64,000 nucleotides of DNA from Rallus limicola (taxonomy: Eukaryota; Chordata; Aves; Gruiformes; Rallidae), in NCBI GenBank assembly GCA_022605955.1, contig JAKCOZ010000001.1, positions 100,596,211 through 100,660,210 of the forward strand. Direction: 5' to 3'. The position numbers and the translations under genes are program-made. Below, one piece after another: positions 6,961 through 63,542 of the stretch. Below the pieces are notes generated by a model. It saw only the letters and a program-made list of their open reading frames with translations. It was not told where the DNA came from and did not search any database. The first letter of the stretch is position 1; each line of letters opens with the position of its first letter.

Positions 6961-8964
6961 TAATAACTCAGTAAGGACCCTTTAAAAAAAACAAACATAA
7001 ACAAAATGCCAGTTCAATGTTTCTTCTCAAAAATCACAACCCATCCAACCAACCATCCAAACAGAAAAGCAGACTGCCCTCTGTCCATCATTAATATGAA
7101 AGTTCTAACAAACTTCAACATGCCACCAACCAACACCGTGAAGAGGTTTGTGGAGATGCATCTGAGAAACTTTGTGATGACAAAAATTCAAACCAGGACC
7201 TAAGTCTACCTCTGACTTTTTCTTTCAGAAGACTGTCTGCAAAAATCATATTAACGGTTTTGTTCAGTCTAAAGGCTTATTTGTAACTTTCACTATAATA
7301 TTTTTTATATATAGTCTGGACATACTATGAAAAATATACTCATATATTTATTGTTATATATAGAAGTAAAAATCAAGGTCTACTGTACATATCAGCCAAG
7401 CTACTGCCAATAGACAAAACAGAAAACCAGGCTAACAATCTGGATGCTAGTTCCTTGCAACCATGGTTGTCCAACCAACAACACTTGCATAATATCATAA
7501 GCAAGAATCCTTACGGATTCTGAAGCAGCGTTCTAATCTAGTAAAAAGAATTATATACAGGAACATGCATAAAAAAGGAACCAAACCTGCAGGTACCCCA
7601 GATTATGTGTAGACAAACAAGTGGGAGCAGGAAGAGCTCCAGCAACAGAATTTAGGACTTTTTAATTACTTTTTTTGTGGAAATTGAAAAAATTAATGTA
7701 ATTTTTAAAATTCCTCCAGATTATTATTACAGGAAAAGTATTTTACCTATGAAAATCTTTCCAGGAATAGAGGGTGAAAAAGCAGAACTTGGGAGGAAAA
7801 TAATTATTATGAGTTCAGACTACAATGGATTCATTTCTTTCATTTTTTCTTTCACTGTGGTGTGTTTCAAGGAACTTAATTTGGTCTCTGCTAAAATTTC
7901 TCTGTCTCCAAAACTATGAAATCAGAAAGTGCAAGCTGCCATTTTTATTGACTTAGTCACTGTAAGAGTTTGTTCCGAGATTAAATCTAATGGTTTATAT
8001 AGCTTATCATTAATAGTTTATGTATTTAATCATCATTACTTACCCTTCTTAACTGCTGCCCTCTCAATTTTTATGTAAAAGGACATTTTAACAAGTTATT
8101 GTTCAGCAACAAAGGCTTATTCTTATTTGGTATGAATAAACAGCTCCAACAAGAACTGATTTCTACGAAAATGATGTATCCCTCCAATATAGTTGACCTA
8201 ACTATTCCCATGTAAGTTAAACTAATAGATTTTTTAAATTTCTAAGGTAATTTAACTGCCTCACTACCTGCCTCTATCCCTTGCATTCAGTTTTGCTGTA
8301 CTTTCTCTTTAAATGCAAAAAAAATTACTGAAACAAAATTTTAACTGGGATGCAGATAGATTTAATCTAAACTAGAGGAAGAACAACAGAAAAAAGCTTG
8401 CACTTTGACACCATTAGCTGCAGAATCATTTGATATCAGTTAATGGACTTGCTAAATGTGACAAGAATTAATTGTGTCCAAACCTTGCATGGTTGTTCTG
8501 CCATGTTTATGCTGTAAAAAGTTACCAATTGTTGAGGAGGGGACTAACAGTACTTATTATCTTTTATTTCACATTTATTCAGAAGGCCAGAAGGTTTTTT
8601 ACAACTTTAAGAGAATCCCATATCCTCATATTTCAGAAAAAGTAATTACACTTGCCTTCAGGAAGTTTCAAAGTTAAAGTGTCAAAACAGGGCTTTTCCC
8701 CCTCCCCCAGCAATTCCCTCCCTGATATAGACTCTGCCTAAATGAAGCTAATTTCATGAAGAATGTCAACTGACAAAACCTTATGGATAGACAACATATG
8801 GTTCCACTGGAGTTTATTGAATCAGCTATTGTCAGCCTTCGCTGAAGGAAAATGGCTGAAATGAATGAGAGTAACTTATTGTATGTAGAGCTGACTCCAT
8901 TGCAAGTGAGGGTTGAGAATTAAGGAGCAGTAAACTGGTGGGGTTTGGGGTATGAGGGACATTC
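6961..8964. other. AT-rich noncoding stretch; nothing recognised
   Basis: No gene, RNA or repeat family is recognised. Reading frames are at most 80 codons and show no domain. The part closest to 6961 could contain further unrecognisable remains of the retrotransposon at 5867-6960. Confidence 0.6.
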
Positions 8965-9746
8965 CTCACACCCCCAGCTCTAGCATGGGGTCCCACCCAC
9001 ACGAGACAGTCCTCCATGAACTTGTCCAATGTGCGTCCTTTTCCATGGGACTTCAGCTCTTCACCAGCTACCCCAGCATGGGTCACTGCTATAGAGTGCA
9101 GTCATACATCATAGAATGTCTCTTAGTCTCTCAGACCCAGGCTGCTCCAGCCTGGTCCTTCACAGGGTCACCAGCCTCCCCCCAGCAAACCTGCTCCAGT
9201 GGGGGTCTCTCTATCTCTCTCTCTCGCTCATCTCTGTTTCTCTTTCTCTCTCCATGGGCTGCAAGTGCTGGCAGGGGCTTGCTCCAATGCAGATCACAGC
9301 GTCTTCTGTATGTCTCCACCTGCTCCAGCATGGGGCCTCTCCACAGGCTGCAGGTGGTGTCTCGGCCTTTTCCATGGCCTGCAGGGGAGACACTCACTCC
9401 ACCATGGGTTTCTCCACGGGCTGCTGGGGCATCTTTCTCTCCAGCACCTGGGGCTCCTCCTCCCTCCCTTCCCTGACCTTGGTTCCTGCACAGTTTCTTA
9501 CATCTTCTCACTCCCTTCTGTGGTGTCAAAAAGTGGCTGCTTGCATTTTTTTTCTCCTATATGTGATTCCCAGAGGCGCTGTGACCGTCACTGATGGGCT
9601 CGGACTTGGTCAGCAATGGCTCTGGACTTGAGCCAGCTGGTGTTTGCTTTGTCGGGCCTGCAGAGAGCTTCTGGCTTCATGCAGAAAGCCACCCCTACAG
9701 CACCCCCTTCTCCACCAGAACCCCACCACACAAAACTGCAAGATCA
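8965..9746 (-). mobile_element. Long GC-rich solo LTR, copy 1 (3'-truncated)
   Basis: This is homologous over its whole length to 46614-47687 and, reversed, to 62365-63542. Shared landmarks are CTTCTCCACCAGAACC near the right end, the CACTGATGGGCTCGG and CCTGCAGAGAGCTTCTGGCT segments, a TCTCTCTCTC patch at 9206-9230 and repeated CTGCTCCAGCATGGGG / CCATGGGCTGCAG motifs. Compared with copy 3 it lacks the last 350-400 bases of the LTR (its left side here). Minus orientation is inferred from copy 3. The ORFs of up to 174 codons across it arise from GC-rich repetitive LTR sequence and occur on both strands, so no protein is called. Flanking retroviral genes are absent. Confidence 0.75.
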
Positions 9747-21416: not shown

Positions 21417-21814
21417 TGGCATCTAGGCCGAAGCTAGATAGGACCAATTTTCATTAGAAGCTGGTATGCGACACAGCTGGGACTGCTGACCCAAAAAGCC
21501 AAAGGGTTATTCCATACCATATGATGTCATGCTCAGTATAAAATGTGGCTAGTTGGTTCCAGGGCAGTCTGAATGTCAGCTGTCTGGTCTGTCGCCAGGT
21601 CAGTAACTTGCCTTATGATATCACCCATTGTGTGTATTCTGTATTAAGTCCTGTTGCTGTTGTTTATCCCTCTCTTTGTCATGGCAGTAATCTGACTTTA
21701 TCTGAACCCAAGCAGTTTGCCTTTGTCTTCTCATTCTCCTCCCCATCCCACCTGGGAAGAGGTGAGCGAGCCGCTATGTGGTGCTCAGCTGCTGTCTGGG
21801 ACTGAACCATGACA
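21417..21814 (+). mobile_element. Solo LTR, related shorter subfamily (about 400 bp)
   Basis: The sense start is a mutated TGGCATCTAGGCCGAAGCTAG and the sense end is GGGACTGAACCATGACA. In between are GGGTTATTCCATACCATATG, GATGTCATGCTCAGTATAAA (a core promoter with a TATA-like box at about 21535-21541) and a GGTGAGCGAGCCGCTATGTG stretch, all landmarks shared with the other LTRs of this family here (40935-41541 and 47823-48640, reversed). The middle section between about 21545 and 21690 differs from them, so it is probably a separate subfamily. Flanks do not show a matching 5-bp duplication, and the damaged start suggests age. No coding capacity is expected. Confidence 0.7.
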
Positions 21815-24800
21815 CAAACTAAAAAGAATATGTTGGTAGGATAGTATTAAAAATATGAAAATAATAACTCTTTCATACCACAGACCTCCTAAAAATTTTA
21901 CAAAACTTATATACAAATTTATTCAAATAACTGACCTTTTTGCCATATCAAGTGTTATAGAAACATCAAACTATAAAGATTACTAAGATTAGTGGCAAAA
22001 CTCATCTGTACATGTATTTATCAAGAAACTGAGGCATACATTATAATGCGTGTTTGGATTCTACATCGAATTGGGCATAAGAAACAAAATTATGATATGT
22101 ACATGTATTAGAAATTCAAAGAAATGCTCATTAATGTTTTGCTGATTTTGAAAAGACTGCTAATAAATCCCAGTATGTCAGTTTAATACATATTTTTGAA
22201 TACTTAATGGTGACTTATGAAATATGCAGCTAATGAAAAAAGTGTACCTGGGGACAAAGTAGCAGTACAACAGATTGTGAAGCTGTTAAACAGTGTAACA
22301 TCAAGAGAGATGTATGTCAAGGTTGCATACTTTATCTCTGTAACTATACAACACAGATGCAGAAAGTATAACAATCTGCAGAAGAATCAAGAATATTGTA
22401 AATGAGACATTTGAATTAATGAAGTGAATATTAAAAGCACAGTATGTGCTGGTGACCTTGTTTGAATATCATTGACTAGAGCAGAATTCAAGAATTTACT
22501 GTGAACAGTATAAGCAAGGATTGCAGGAGAGTGAAAAATGTTAAGGAAACCATGGAAACAACATGAAAAAATGCCAACTCAAGAAAAACAAGAAAAGAAA
22601 ATCCCACATCTTGCTGGACTGAAAGAACAGGTCTCTCTAGTCAAGGTATTTTATAATAGATAGGAAGTAGGTAAAATAAAATGGTAAAAACATAAGGAAA
22701 AAAAAGTTGACTCTCAAAAGGCTTTTCTGGATAGAAAATGTCTTTTCCACATCTGTTTAAGATTTCCATTGACCCTTTTGTGTGCTTGTGAAGACTGGAA
22801 CTAGTCATAAATAAATGAGAACATTTGAAGGTTCTTCTAGCAACTGTGTTCTCTAGTACCTGTGTTAAAAGCAAATCTGTGAAGAAAATCAAAACAAAAT
22901 CTTTGACTCCTGTTGACTAAGTATCCTAATGTATTACTAAGAATCTAAGCATCTTATAATTTTCCATAATTTTCCAGTAAATTTCTTGTTGGTCTCTGAA
23001 TAATAATTACCTGTGATTCTTTCTTTTCCATGAGGGCACATGACATTATTTTTTCTTGTCATCCACATCTTCTCCTCAGGTAGCAATTGCCTTTTGTTTC
23101 AAGTTGTCTCATCGATTAATATAATAAGGTTAAACTGAGCAATTGTGTTCAAATTGAACATAGCTTGGAGTTTACTGATTCTGTTTTAGACCTTTTCTTC
23201 TGTTGAAATATTTATATCTATCACCTCAATTTTATTTCTTTTGGATGTCACTGCTCTCATCATCTCCACTCTCCTCCTATTGATGTTCTTACCAAAAATG
23301 TGCATGCCTTCTCTCTCTCTCTGTCTCTCTCTCTCTGCCTATTTAGGTGAAAAACAGTTTTCCCATTAAAACCCTTCAAAGGAGATTTCTCCATGTATCT
23401 CCACAGTCCTAAATCTGCTGTCCAATGCTGCTGCAGAAATTTCTCCTCCTTTCCATTTGATTCTATTTCATAAGAGTACAGTCTCTGAAAAATCTCACAT
23501 TTAGCAACTTCATGTCTTGCTGATCTGTGTAGCTCCACTCATAGGGCTACACATGTATCAATAAATCACGATTCTCTTAAATTTGAAGTTTAGACTAAAA
23601 TCTTCAGATAATTTAAATGCCATTAGTACCACTTTCATACAATCCAAAAACATATACTGCGACTAGAAAAAACCAGACCTGTTCTTACTGAGCTGTCAAA
23701 TTTTCATAAAAGCTGAGTCAGTGAACACTGATAGTAACTGCACATTTTGTACTTCACAGTTAGACACAGACCTAACTACTGCACAGAGCAGTCCAAACCC
23801 TTTCAATAGGCACACAAGTCAAATAACCAAGTTTATCAATGTGGTGAGTCTGAGAGACACAGTTTTCCAGTTTTTGTTGGTCCAAATCAAACATTTAGCT
23901 TTACTTGTCTGGATGCTTACAGCACAGGTTCATTTGAATCAGCTTGTTTGGATGAAACTGTAGGAACTGAGAAAAAGCTTTTTCTCTGTTTGCAAAAGCT
24001 AGATGAAGAATAATCTTTGCACCAACTGCAGTTTTTATTAATGATTCAGATAAAGATCAGCATCATTAGATTGAAAAGTACAGCTGGCCTCATCTTGCTG
24101 AAGAAATAAGGGGAAAAATGGTTATTAAGGCTATTTTAGATACAGTACATTGAAACAAAAAAATATCCTATTGCAAAGTCAGATACAAATCAGCGCTTTA
24201 ATATTAAACAATTTTAATCTGAACGTCTATAGTTGAACACAATTATTGCCTTATTATGCAGTATGTTCAATTTATGCAATGAATAGATTGCCTTCACGCA
24301 GAATGAATCAGGAAATGAAATTTGAGTACAGGAGGAAATAATCTTACTCCAAATTAGAACAGCTATTCAAGTACTTCTTTGCAAAACCAAAGACATCTGG
24401 GATGGGTTTTTTTGTCCTCTATAGTGAGATAAATAAGATGGTAAAAATAACCTTGCCAAGTAGAAGTGGACAAAATCAGGAGCACCTTTGAAAAAACTAT
24501 TACTAAAACTGAATCCATTATATAATTCCCACTCATTCAATGTGAGGTTCTGGTTATCTTCTCTTTCAACATATTGCATATTGTAAGGAAATACCCTGTG
24601 GTGTCCAAAAGTATACTTGCAGGTTGATTGCCAAAGCCTGCTAATGCAATAACCAAACAATTCTTAAAGTTATATGGAAAGAAAAAAAAAAAAAAAGAAA
24701 ACCAAAACAAAACAAATAAAACACACCCCTCAAAAAAAACCCAAAAAAACTAACCCCACTTACACAAATGAGTTTGAAAAGCCCTCTAAGATAGGTACCA

Positions 24801-46613: not shown

Positions 46614-47687
46614 TGACTGGTGATTTAGCCCTGGCTGGAGGCCATATGCCCACCAAAGTCTCTCTAGCACTTCCCTTTTCAGTTGTGCAGGGGAGAAAAT
46701 ACATATTGAGAGGTTCAGGAGTCGAGATAAGGACAGGGAGAGATCATTCCGCAATCAGTGTCATGGGCACAACAGACTCAACACAGCAGAAAGGAAAGAA
46801 AACTCTAATTTATGACACTGCACTACATACCCAGTGACACCAGAGTCGGGGGTAATGAGAAAAGCAATCAGATCTTAAAGCACCTCCCCCACCCCTTCCT
46901 TCTTAGCAGACTTCAGTCATGATTTCGCTCCCTTCTTCCCCTCCCATTATGGCACAGGGAGGGGCAGGTACTGGGGGAATGGGAGTTTCAGTCAATTCCT
47001 CACAAGTTAGTTTCATTCTTGGCCAGGGAGGCATTCCACACACACCCTTCTCCTGCTGCACCGTGGGGTCCCACCATGGGCAGTAATAAATCACAATGTC
47101 TCTCAGTCTCTCAGTCCCAGTCCTCCACAGGGTCACAAACCCCCACAGCAAACCTGCTCAGGAGCAGATCTCTCCCTTGCTCATCTCTGCATCTCTGTTT
47201 CTCTTCACAGGGTGCAAGTGCTGGCAGAGGCTTGCTCCAACACAGGTCACAGCATCTTCTGTATGTCTCCACCTGCTCCAGTGTGGGTCCTCTCCACAGG
47301 CTGCAGGTGTGGTCTCAGCCTTTTCCATGGGTTGCGAGGGGGACACCTGCTCCACCATGGGATTCTCCACAGGCTGCAGGGGCATCATTCTCTTCAGCAT
47401 CTGGGGCACCTCTTCCCCCCACCTTCCCTGACCTTGTTGTCTGCACAGTTTCTTTTATCTTCTCACTCCCTTCTCTGGTGGCAAAAAGCAGCTGCTTTTA
47501 GGATTTTTTTCTCCTAAATGTGATTCTCAGAGGTAAATGGCTTGGCCTTGGTCAGCAGCAATTCCAGCCTTGAATCGGCCGATGATTACTCTGTCAGGAC
47601 TGCAGAAAGTTTCTGGCTGCTTCTTGCAGAAGCCACCCTTGAAGCCCCCCCTTCTCCACCAGAACCCAGCCACACAAAACTGCAACA
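46614..47687 (-). mobile_element. Long GC-rich solo LTR, copy 2 (internal deletion)
   Basis: On the plus strand it begins TGACTGGTGATTTAGCCCTGG and ends AACCCAGCCACACAAAACTG then CAACA, the reverse of copy 3's ends. It shares with copy 3 the GGAGGCCA and CACCAAAG segments, GGAGAAAATA, GATAAGGACAGGGAGAGATC, AGACTCAACA, CACCAGAGTC and AAGCACC, then the CTGCTCCA / CCATGGG / GGCTGCAGG repeats. Near 47070-47090 about 90 bases present in copies 1 and 3 are missing (GGGGTCCCACCATGGGCAGTAATAAATC joins two separated parts). The family's TG...CA ends are retained, but no target duplication is clear. The 160- and 111-codon frames inside are chance frames in GC-rich LTR sequence. Confidence 0.8.
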
Positions 47688-51224: not shown

Positions 51225-51995
51225 TCATAGATTTATAAAATGATTTAGGTTGGAAGGGATCAAAGATCGTCTTGTTCAAAAACCCCTGTCATGTGTAGGA
51301 GGTTTCTCTAGGAAACCTCTTCTAGTACCTGAACCACCCTCACAGTGAAGAATTTTATTTAACCTCAATCTACCCTCTTTTAAGGTAAAACCATTCTCCC
51401 TAATCCTTTCACTGCACACCCTGATAAACTGACCCTCTTTAGCTTTCCTGTAGGCCCCGATCACATACTGGAAGGCTGTAATAAGGTGATCACAGAGCCT
51501 TCTGTTCTCAAGGCTGAACAATCCCAACTCTCTCAGCCTGTCTTTGTAGGAGAGGTGACCAGCCCTCTGATCATCTTTGCAGCCCTCTTCTGGACCTGCT
51601 CCAACAGGTCCCTGTCTTTCTTGTATTGGAGACCACAGAACGGGATGCAGTACTCCAGGTGGAGTCTTACCAGACCAGGAGTGTAGAATCACCACCCTTG
51701 ACCTACTGGTCACACTGGTTTTGATGCAGCCCAAGACATGTTTTGCTTTCTGATCTGCAAATGCATGCTGTCAGCTCATGTTGAACTTGATATCAATAAA
51801 CATTCTTAAGTCCTTCTTCTCCTCAGGGCTGCTTTCAATCCCTTCTCCACCCAGCCTGTAGTTGTGATTGGAATACTGCCAACCCATGTGCAGGAGCTTG
51901 CATTTGGTGGTGTTGAACTTCATGAGGTTTGCATAGGCCCATCTCTCAAGGTCTCTCTCAATGGCATCCTTTCCCTCCAGCGTGTCACCTGCAGC
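51225..51995 (-). mobile_element. CR1 LINE, 3' part of a copy split by an LTR
   Basis: The plus strand starts TCATAGATTTATAAAATG and GGTTGGAAGGGATC, the CR1 3' terminus in reverse. Sequence then runs back through the reverse-transcriptase C-terminal region: on the minus strand [19 protein letters not shown] is visible at about 51485-51545, matching the conserved ERLxxLGLxSLExRRL block of CR1 ORF2. Further upstream (51740-51990) the plus strand reads CAGCCTGTAGTTGTGATTGG, CATTTGGTGGTGTTGAAC and GGCATCCTTTCCCTCCAG, all standard CR1 positions. The frame is interrupted by stops and small indels, so it is inactive. Its other half resumes at 52609, with five bases (GCAGC) repeated at the break. Confidence 0.93.
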
Positions 51996-52608
51996 TGTCC
52001 TGGTTTCAGTCAGGATAGAGTTAACTTCATTTGTAGCAGCGGATGGAATGCTGTGTTTGGGAGTTAAAATGAAAGCAGTGCTGATAACACCCTGATGTTT
52101 CTACTTGCAGTCAGACAGTCAAAGCCAGGACAGGTGACCCAGCTGGGCATAAGAGAGTATTCCATACCAATTACGTCCTGCCCAGGATAAAGGGGGGCTG
52201 ATGGGAGGAAGAAGGGGGGCGGTTCCGGGACGCGAGCGGCCGGGACGCAAGGGTCTTAGGGGACGGTCGGGTTCCGGGACAGCTCTGGGTGGTAAGGCCT
52301 GAGTTGTGTGGTTCGGTGAGAAACTGCATTGTTTATCAATAGTTTCATATTCTTTTGCTCTAAAGTCCTGTTAGCATTGTTATATTTTATTTTCCTGTTA
52401 TCTTAGTAAACTATCCTTATCCCAACCCACGGGCCTCTTAGTTTCTTGGGTCTGGAGTTATTTGCCCCTTCCTTTTCCCTTCCCTTGTTTCCCTCCCCCC
52501 TTTCTCTTCTTCCCATCAGCCCCCCTTTTTCCAGCGCAGCAGAAGCGTGCTGGGCCTATAACCCAGAGGTCGATGGATCTTGGCCCAAGCCGGGGTGAAA
52601 CCACGACA
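51996..52608 (+). mobile_element. Intact-ended solo LTR (613 bp) with 5-bp target duplication and tRNA-Met-like segment
   Basis: It starts TGTCCTGGTTTCAGTCAGG and ends GGGGTGAAACCACGACA, and is flanked by GCAGC at 51991-51995 and 52609-52613. It lies inside a CR1, which gives exact boundaries. A GGATAAAGGGGGGC box at about 52184-52197 is the likely core promoter, and TAGTAAACTATCC with ATCCCAACCCACGGGCC near 52405-52435 corresponds to the polyadenylation/R-U5 region of its relatives. Compared with them, 52200-52300 is a different, CpG-rich block with repeated TTCCGGGAC words, and 52534-52579 matches initiator tRNA-Met. Retained CpGs, perfect ends and perfect duplication suggest it is the youngest element here. 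No retroviral genes adjoin it. Confidence 0.93.
52534..52579 (+). other. Initiator tRNA-Met-like segment inside the LTR (not a functional tRNA gene)
   Basis: Forty-six bases, from GCGCAGC to GATGGATC, match the vertebrate initiator tRNA-Met sequence (D arm, anticodon arm, variable loop and first half of the T arm) at 44 positions. The differences are G to A at 52541 in the D loop and C to T at 52557, which turns the CAT anticodon into TAT. The acceptor stem and the second half of the T arm are missing: after GGATC the sequence continues TTGGCCC, so the internal B box (GGATCGAAACC in the tRNA) is broken. The first part of the A box is also altered. The match is in the sense direction of the LTR, 29 bases before its 3' end. 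It is therefore a captured tRNA fragment, not an expressed tRNA gene as far as can be judged. Confidence 0.85.
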
Positions 52609-53300
52609 GCAGCCCACAGCTTGGCACCATCAGCAAATTTGCTGAGGGTGCACTCAGTCCAACTGTCCATGTCTCCAACAAAGATGTTAAGTAATAACAG
52701 TTCCAGTACCAACTCCTGAGGACCACGACTGATCACTGGTCTCGATTTGGATATTGAGCCACTGAGCACAAGTTTTTTGAGTGTGACCATCTAGCCAATT
52801 CCTTATCCACCAAGTGGTCCATCTGTCAATTCCGTATGTCTCAAATTTTAAGGCAAGAATGTCATGTGAGACAATGCTAAATACTTTACATAAGCCCAGG
52901 TAGATAATGTTTGTGACTCTTCCCTTATCCACTCCATCAATTAAATTTTTAGGCACAATTTACTCTTAGTGAAGCCATGTTGACTGTCACCAGTAGGATC
53001 TGCTCCATGATCTTGACAGGCACAGAGGTGAGACTGACCAGGCTATAGTTCCCTGGGTCTTCCTTTTTCCCCTTTTTTAAAATTCTAGGTTATATTTGCC
53101 CTATTTCAGTTGACGGGAACTTCACTTGACTGCCATGACTTCTCAAATATGGCAAAAAGCAGCTTAGACATTTCATCAGTCAGTTGCCTCAGGACCTGTA
53201 GATGCATCTCATCGGGTCCCATGGACTTTGTACCTTCAGGTTACTTAGATGTCCTCAGTCCTGACCTTCTCCTACAGTGGGAGATTTTCATTATCTCAGT
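52609..53300 (-). mobile_element. CR1 LINE, reverse-transcriptase part of the split copy
   Basis: On the minus strand the end nearest the LTR reads ECTLSKFADGAKLW, the catalytic block of CR1 reverse transcriptase, with the second aspartate of FADD changed to glycine. Upstream are the WIRNWLDGHTQ stretch (about 52785-52820) and the IVSHDIL/KFETYGIDRWT segments of the palm and fingers. At 53040-53110 the plus strand reads GGCTATAGTTCCCTGGGTCTTCC and at 53195-53285 CATCTCATCGGGTCCCATGG and CTTCTCCTACAGTGGGAG, which are N-terminal reverse-transcriptase positions. The copy is 5'-truncated at about 53285-53300, so the endonuclease is missing. Frameshifts and stops make it inactive. With 51225-51995 it totals about 1.46 kb. 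Confidence 0.92.
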
Positions 53301-62364: not shown

Positions 62365-63542
62365 TGTCATAGTTTTCTGTGGCTGGGTTCTGGTGTAGAA
62401 GGGGAGTTGCAGGGATGGCTTCTGCAAGAAGCAGCCAGAAGCTCTCTGCAGGCCCGACAGAGCAAACACCAGCCGGCTCAAGGCCGGAACTGCTGCTGCC
62501 CATCAGTGACAGTCACAGAACCTCTGGGAATCACATTAATAGAAAAAAAACCAAACAACACAAGCAGCTGCATTTTGCCACCAGAGAAGGGAGTGATAAG
62601 ATATAAGAAACTGTGCAGACACCAAGGCAAGGGAAGGGGGGGAAGGGGCCCCCCAGGTGCCAGAGAGAAAGATGCCCCAGCAGCCTGTGGAGAAACCCCA
62701 TGGTGGAGCGAGTGTCCCCCTGCAGCCCATGGAAAAGGCTGAGACCCCCACACTGAAGCTCAGTGGAGCAGGTGGAGACATACAGAAGAAGCTGTGACCC
62801 GTGTTGGAGCTAGCCTCTCCTAGCACTTGCAGGCCATGGAGAGAGACAGAGACACAGAGATGAATGAGAGAGAGAAAGATAAACACAGGAGCAGGTTTGC
62901 TGGGGAGGGAGACTTGTGACCAGGCTAGAGCAGTCTGGGCCTGAGAGACTGAAAGACATTCTATGATTTATGACTGCACCCCATAGCAGTGACCCACGCT
63001 GGGGCAGCTGGCGAAGGCCTGAAGCCCCATGGGAAAGGACTCAGTTGGAGAACTTCATGGAGGACTGTCTCCTGTGGGTGGGACCCCATGCTGGAGCAGG
63101 GAAAGAGTTTCAGGAATACTCCCCTGCTTGGCTAAGGAGGAAAACAGCTTGTGAGGAACTGACTGAAACCCCCATTTCCCCAGTGTCTGCCCCTCCCCAT
63201 GCCCGAGTTGGGGGAAGAAAAGGGAGAAAAATCGTGACTGAATTGAAGTCTGCTCAGAAGGGAGGGGTGGGGAGAGGTGCTTTAAGATCTGGTCATACTT
63301 CTCATTACCTGACTCTGGTGCCACTGGGTGTGCAGGGCAGTGTCATAAATTAGCGTTTTGTTTCCTTTATTCCATGTTGAGTCTGTTGTGCGTATGATGT
63401 TAATTGTGGAATGATCTCTCCCTGTCCTTACCTCAACTCCTAAGCCTCTCAATATATATTTTCTCCCCTGCCCAGCTGAAAAGTGGAGTGACAGACCAAC
63501 TTTGGTGGGTGCCTGGCCTCTAGCCAGGGCTAAATCACCACA
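62365..63542 (+). mobile_element. Long GC-rich solo LTR, copy 3 (most complete, 1178 bp)
   Basis: It starts TGTCATAGTTTTCTGTGGC and ends GCCAGGGCTAAATCACCACA. The six bases before it are ATGGTG and the six after it AAGGTG, a five-of-six match that may be a mutated target duplication. In order it has CTGGGTTCTGGTGTAGAAGG, GGCCCGACAGAGC, CAGTGACAGTCACAG, GAAACTGTGCAGACACCAAGG and many degenerate GCTGGAGCAGG / CTGCAGCCCATGG units between 62690 and 63110. Its right part, with CCCTGTCCTTACCTCAAC near 63420, parallels the TTTATCTCAACCC stretch that follows the polyadenylation signal of the 600-bp LTRs, so plus is taken as sense. Frames of up to 127 codons are present on both strands and are not called as genes. 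No retroviral interior is next to it. Confidence 0.82.

Follow-up and report, generated by a model that had tools for sequence, protein, structure and literature searches.

How does an internal piece of the initiator tRNA come to lie, in the sense direction and with sharp edges, inside a solo LTR? The question is raised by a locus of Rallus limicola, analyzed here within a stretch of 64,000 nucleotides of contig JAKCOZ010000001.1 (hereafter, the window). A preliminary description of this DNA had given the LTR exact boundaries and placed in it, in LTR sense and 29 bases before its 3′ end, a block matching initiator tRNA-Met at 44 of 46 bases. All of these points stand. The LTR runs from 51996 to 52608, has TG...CA ends and is flanked by GCAGC on both sides; the block aligns without gaps on the plus strand, from 52534 to 52579, and stops 29 bases before the end of the LTR. 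We describe the LTR and its parts, compare its U5 region with those of related LTRs, and weigh the routes by which this U5 may have been formed.

The solo LTR and its parts

The features of the locus are the following.

51991–51995 (no strand): target-site duplication GCAGC, left copy
51996–52608 (plus strand): solo LTR (LTR1), 613 bp, TGTCC...CGACA, recognized by its TG...CA ends, identical 5-bp flanks and nhmmer relatives in the window
52178–52222 (plus strand): U3 segment, source or partner of the inverted copy
52405–52410 (plus strand): AGTAAA, polyadenylation-like, read from the sequence and the alignment, with AATAAA in the related LTR2
52492–52539 (minus strand): U5 stretch, inverted copy of U3 52178–52222, recognized by its alignment score against shuffles
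52534–52579 (plus strand): initiator tRNA-Met piece, G10–C56, 44/46
52580–52608 (plus strand): resumed LTR 3′ end, which aligns with that of related LTRs
52609–52613 (no strand): target-site duplication GCAGC, right copy

We take AGTAAA, like its AATAAA counterpart in LTR2, to be a polyadenylation-like motif, and the GATAAAG found in the U3 segment is presumably a TATA-like stretch. The 5-bp target duplication of LTR1 is a trait expected for an ERV-L-like (class III) LTR, duplications of this length being linked to that class, if not exclusively. Within the window, the empty-site check gave no further copy of the flanking repeat spanning the LTR1 junction.

Several open frames were also observed in the window. 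One of 164 codons (51276–51770, minus strand) resembles a portion of the reverse transcriptase of CR1-type LINEs; on its 5′ side, at a distance of about 225 bases, comes the LTR. The CR1-like look of the flanks makes a bird host plausible. Long frames at three places, 8934–9631 (plus strand), 46923–47517 (plus strand) and 62536–62967 (minus strand), have visibly similar translations (e.g., QVLAGACSN, FCMSPPAP) and form a dispersed repeat.

The initiator tRNA piece and its edges

The block corresponds to linear positions 10–55 of the initiator tRNA-Met, that is, to G10–C56 in standard numbering. The query was the human initiator tRNA-Met; its positions 1–31 agree with two probe oligonucleotides given in passages of PMC7293042. 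The two mismatches are a G to A change at linear position 17, in a CpG, and a C to T change at linear position 33, which is the first base of the anticodon (CAT to TAT). Identity to the tRNA stops sharply outside the block, with 0 of 9 bases on the 5′ flank and 2 of 10 on the 3′ flank. The claimed likeness is also better than random: local alignment gives the block a score of 82, whereas 20 shuffled versions of the window (by two-base units) never exceed 26 and no other part of the window exceeds 25. The Rfam tRNA model aligns 52534–52566 to model positions 10–42, and thus recovers the start at position 10, but its 13.9 bits (cut-off 29; E 1.7) are not significant on their own.

The edges of the block can be set against the modifications of the tRNA. 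According to passages of PMC7293042, every human initiator tRNA has m1G9, and tRNA modifications hinder reverse transcriptase (RT), so that an unmethylated position 9 amounts to a missing RT block. As for m1A58, retroviral RT copying the primer tRNA is described as stopping mainly there (PMC13191261, in part). The piece starts at G10, directly beside the position of m1G9, and ends at C56, two bases before that of m1A58. A 46-base piece can be placed in the 72-base tRNA in 27 ways, and two of these placements, the present one included, lie wholly between the two marks. Such a coincidence is modest, suggestive rather than proof.

Nonetheless, the modified, mature tRNA is likely to have been the template, m1G9 being known from human initiator tRNAs, since an RT moving toward the 5′ end of the tRNA would copy G10 and then stop, which is the edge observed. 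The m1A58 stop does not explain entry at C56, and m1G9 need not be an absolute stop, because RT can also read such methylations, making errors (passages of PMC7293042). In addition, precursor tRNAs are packaged as well in MLV and HIV-1 particles (PMC4997597, in part); such precursors might lack the methylations, which would count against a modified template.

An inverted copy of U3 beside the tRNA piece

The tRNA piece does not stand alone. On its 5′ side, U5 bases 52492–52539 form an inverted copy of U3 bases 52178–52222, with an alignment score of 56 and an exact 18-base core. With the LTR divided at base 400, none of 1000 shuffles of its two parts came up to this score (maximum 31), nor did any of 5000 shuffles of the two segments themselves (maximum 39). 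The U3 source lies 292 bases away. Outside the tRNA block, the copy differs from its source by a 3-base gap and by four substituted bases, including that at the junction.

The inverted-copy alignment enters the tRNA block by six bases, five of which are shared (GCGCAG in the tRNA, GGGCAG in U3). Hence, read on the other strand, the edge between the tRNA and U3 pieces shows a microhomology, CTGCGC/CTGCCC; at the 3′ edge of the block, a single C is possibly shared, as judged by eye. The base immediately 5′ of the block fits neither the tRNA nor U3.

Related LTRs and the apparently replaced part of U5

Searches of the window with nhmmer, using LTR1 and its relative LTR2 as queries, gave four related LTRs, numbered LTR2 to LTR5 in the text.

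41546–40940 (minus strand): related LTR
48640–47826 (minus strand): related LTR, in pieces
about 21439–21822 (plus strand): related LTR
about 17630–17176 (minus strand): related LTR

The five LTRs were compared by aligning hand-cut U5 regions, the four relatives being diverged rather than close copies of LTR1. Their common 3′ end is clear in LTR3 and LTR4 and weaker in LTR2 and LTR5. All five U5 regions have stretches in common before and after the part that is altered in LTR1, least clearly in LTR5, and the last 29 bases of LTR1 rejoin the common 3′ end. The tRNA block was found in the U5 of none of the four diverged relatives (scores 12, 14, 12, and 15, vs. 82 in LTR1), and neither was the inverted U3 copy (15, 14, 18, and 12, vs. 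56), the highest of the latter scores belonging to LTR4.

Since the relatives match LTR1 on both sides of the altered part and the 3′ end of LTR1 resumes, it seems that a U5 stretch was exchanged for other sequence rather than simply interrupted; its length, about 40 bases, is a visual estimate based on diverged copies. Part of the inverted U3 match may nevertheless be an older likeness of U5 to U3, because the U5 regions of LTR2 and LTR4 carry short stretches resembling the inverted U3 piece. Such stretches (TCTTC..CCCATC in LTR2) are also a possible second landing site.

A native likeness of U5 to the tRNA, which could have guided the capture, was also considered. It is not supported, the U5 of LTR2, the only one compared in this way, being no closer to the tRNA than its shuffles (860 of 1000 reach its strict score and 581 of 1000 its soft score). 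Finally, we note that bases 52222–52290 of LTR1 are GC-rich, contain two GGTTCCGGGAC units and face gaps of LTR2 in the alignment.

Template switching as the favored origin

We hold with moderate confidence that, within a single round of reverse transcription, RT changed templates several times in succession and thereby rewrote the U5 interior of LTR1 or of a direct ancestor of LTR1. Capture by template switching had been put forward in the preliminary description, and it stands as the best-supported reading, backed by the start at G10, beside m1G9, and by the adjoining inverted U3 copy with its microhomology. The same description had called the sense orientation of the tRNA piece odd. This part does not hold: if RT switches to a packaged tRNA during minus-strand synthesis through U5, the tRNA is copied as an RNA template, and its sequence is expected in the sense direction in the plus strand. 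Regarding the means for such a switch, retroviral particles package up to about 50 tRNAs, and microhomology allows retroviruses to patch in host sequences, a process named “patch repair” (passages of PMC4997597).

The steps would be as follows. Having copied the last 29 bases of U5 during minus-strand synthesis, RT would switch to a packaged, mature initiator tRNA, which it would read from C56 as far as G10 before being halted by m1G9. The stalled end, ...CTGCGC, would then pair with minus-strand U3 DNA at CTGCCC, and the copying of about 20 to 40 bases of U3 would yield the inverted piece. A second shared stretch, GATGGGA.GAAG, would allow the return to U5. The product would integrate, and later recombination between LTRs would leave the solo LTR. 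Capture would be possible only at limited stages, because minus-strand U3 DNA must already exist; it would be present once the second strand transfer has taken place, or a second genome in the particle could supply it.

We infer the RNA template (from the m1G9 edge), the order of the jumps, the single event, and its timing. One event for both pieces is compatible with their divergence, since the tRNA piece shows 2 differences in 46 bases and the inverted copy those at four bases and the 3-base gap mentioned above, all of these being small numbers.

Alternative origins

The nearest alternative is a repair, of the Pol-theta type, of a DNA break in the already integrated LTR. About 40 U5 bases (by eye) would have been lost, and the filler would consist of a nearby inverted U3 piece and of a second piece copied from a tRNA gene or a tRNA. 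Such repair typically leaves a deletion filled with templated sequence, drawn partly from a nearby inverted stretch and partly from elsewhere, and bordered by microhomology. Thus, end joining accounts equally well for the replaced stretch, the nearby inverted source, and the microhomology, and the ordinary U5 of the four related LTRs in the window is in line with it. However, a tRNA gene as template gives no reason for a stop at G10, for which an RNA template is needed, and the U3 source being 292 bases away also weighs against this origin. We regard it as a serious, though less likely, alternative.

According to a second alternative, a young LTR subfamily would have the block as a fixed part, kept by selection because it serves the RNA, either through tRNA mimicry or by letting U3 and U5 pair and so close the genomic RNA. 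As RNA, the two arms would indeed pair strongly, with −77.8 kcal/mol for the predicted duplex, a pairing that could in principle join the ends of the genomic RNA, and the tRNA piece is well kept (44/46). Yet the tRNA piece alone has no tRNA fold: the minimum-energy fold of the block RNA differs from that of a tRNA, as judged by eye, and its stability is nothing out of the ordinary (z −1.57), being equalled by 13 of 200 shuffles. On balance, selection for such a role appears improbable.

The third alternative, the insertion into the LTR of a tRNA-derived SINE or of a tRNA pseudogene mobilized by a LINE, is very improbable. Human LINE-1 does form chimeras with tRNA fragments (PMC13174262, in part). 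However, the block lacks the traits of a tRNA-derived SINE (a head with both boxes, a tail, and a target duplication), no tail and no target duplication being found around it; both tRNA ends are absent, and a U5 stretch seems to have been replaced where a clean insertion would be expected. Lastly, a chance likeness to the tRNA, with which the non-significant match of the Rfam model would agree, is rejected as virtually impossible in view of the alignment scores of the shuffles.

Function of the block

Doubts about Pol III expression of the block had been expressed from the start, and the sequence agrees with them. The anticodon position reads TAT, the B box matches at 8 of 11 positions, and the first TTTT lies 194 bases downstream; the A box, at 10 of 11, is nearly intact. 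A functional tRNA gene is rejected on these B box and terminator grounds, on the Rfam score below the cut-off, and on the result of ARAGORN, which returned 0 tRNA genes in the whole window. We take the structure as a scar, with no sign of tRNA function.

Searches beyond the window

Collections outside the window were searched for further copies of the LTR. In viral contigs, four LTR patterns gave 0, 0, 0, and 4 matches. The four loci concerned (L006–L009) are rejected as chance, since their match to the whole LTR hardly extends past the 17-base pattern, spanning 18 to 26 bases. The silence of the viral contigs means little, because a control pattern from the intact tRNA also gave 0 exact matches there. 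The phage collection showed no match to the LTR. In genome contigs, a 21-base pattern from the R region matched five times; these loci are likewise attributed to chance, four of them (L001–L004) matching the whole LTR over at most 22 bases and the fifth (L005) giving no match to it at E up to 1.

Relationships with known systems

Should the edge at m1G9 prove causal, the locus would preserve, as a genomic fossil, the reading of a modified tRNA by a retroviral enzyme. The finding also bears on the abrupt change of U5 sequence between LTR lineages. A broader proposal, namely that an LTR lineage took up a mature tRNA in its U5, with edges at methylation marks (at m1G9 and near m1A58), together with an end-pairing inverted copy of U3, and then spread, seems to us quite doubtful.

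In titles and abstract openings of the open-licence literature, a tRNA piece inside an LTR is unreported among the matches listed, and within the same scope there is no report of a U5 that combines an internal piece of the initiator tRNA, an edge aligned with a methylation and an inverted partner from U3. Several related cases can be compared with the present one. 7SL RNA has reportedly been patched into an experimental retroviral recombinant (cited in PMC4997597); there, as here, a Pol III host RNA appears in a retroviral product, but the setting is experimental and the RNA is another one.

Both host RNA patched into retroviral DNA and tRNA fragments within LINE-1 chimeras have been described before (PMC4997597 and PMC13174262, both in part). 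In the human tRNA/LINE-1 chimeras, a partial tRNA is likewise joined to a retroelement. Unlike the present piece, these tRNA parts are mostly half-length (1–37 region), antisense and joined to LINE-1, and they are attributed to twin priming (passages of PMC13174262). The copying of the primer tRNA up to or past m1A58 also yields an RT-copied tRNA whose edge is set by a modification (PMC13191261, in part). However, it would leave an antisense tRNA 3′ end beside the primer-binding site, unlike what is observed here; the preliminary description had said as much of primer-tRNA read-through, in agreement with the pathway.

The closest system is retroviral patch repair, or tertiary-template insertion, in which, as probably here, a short host sequence enters retroviral DNA with microhomology at a junction (passages of PMC4997597). 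Compared with the cases described there, the source is here an internal piece of the initiator tRNA, which lies in the U5 of an LTR, adjoins an inverted U3 copy and has its 5′ edge at the position of a methylation that hinders RT.
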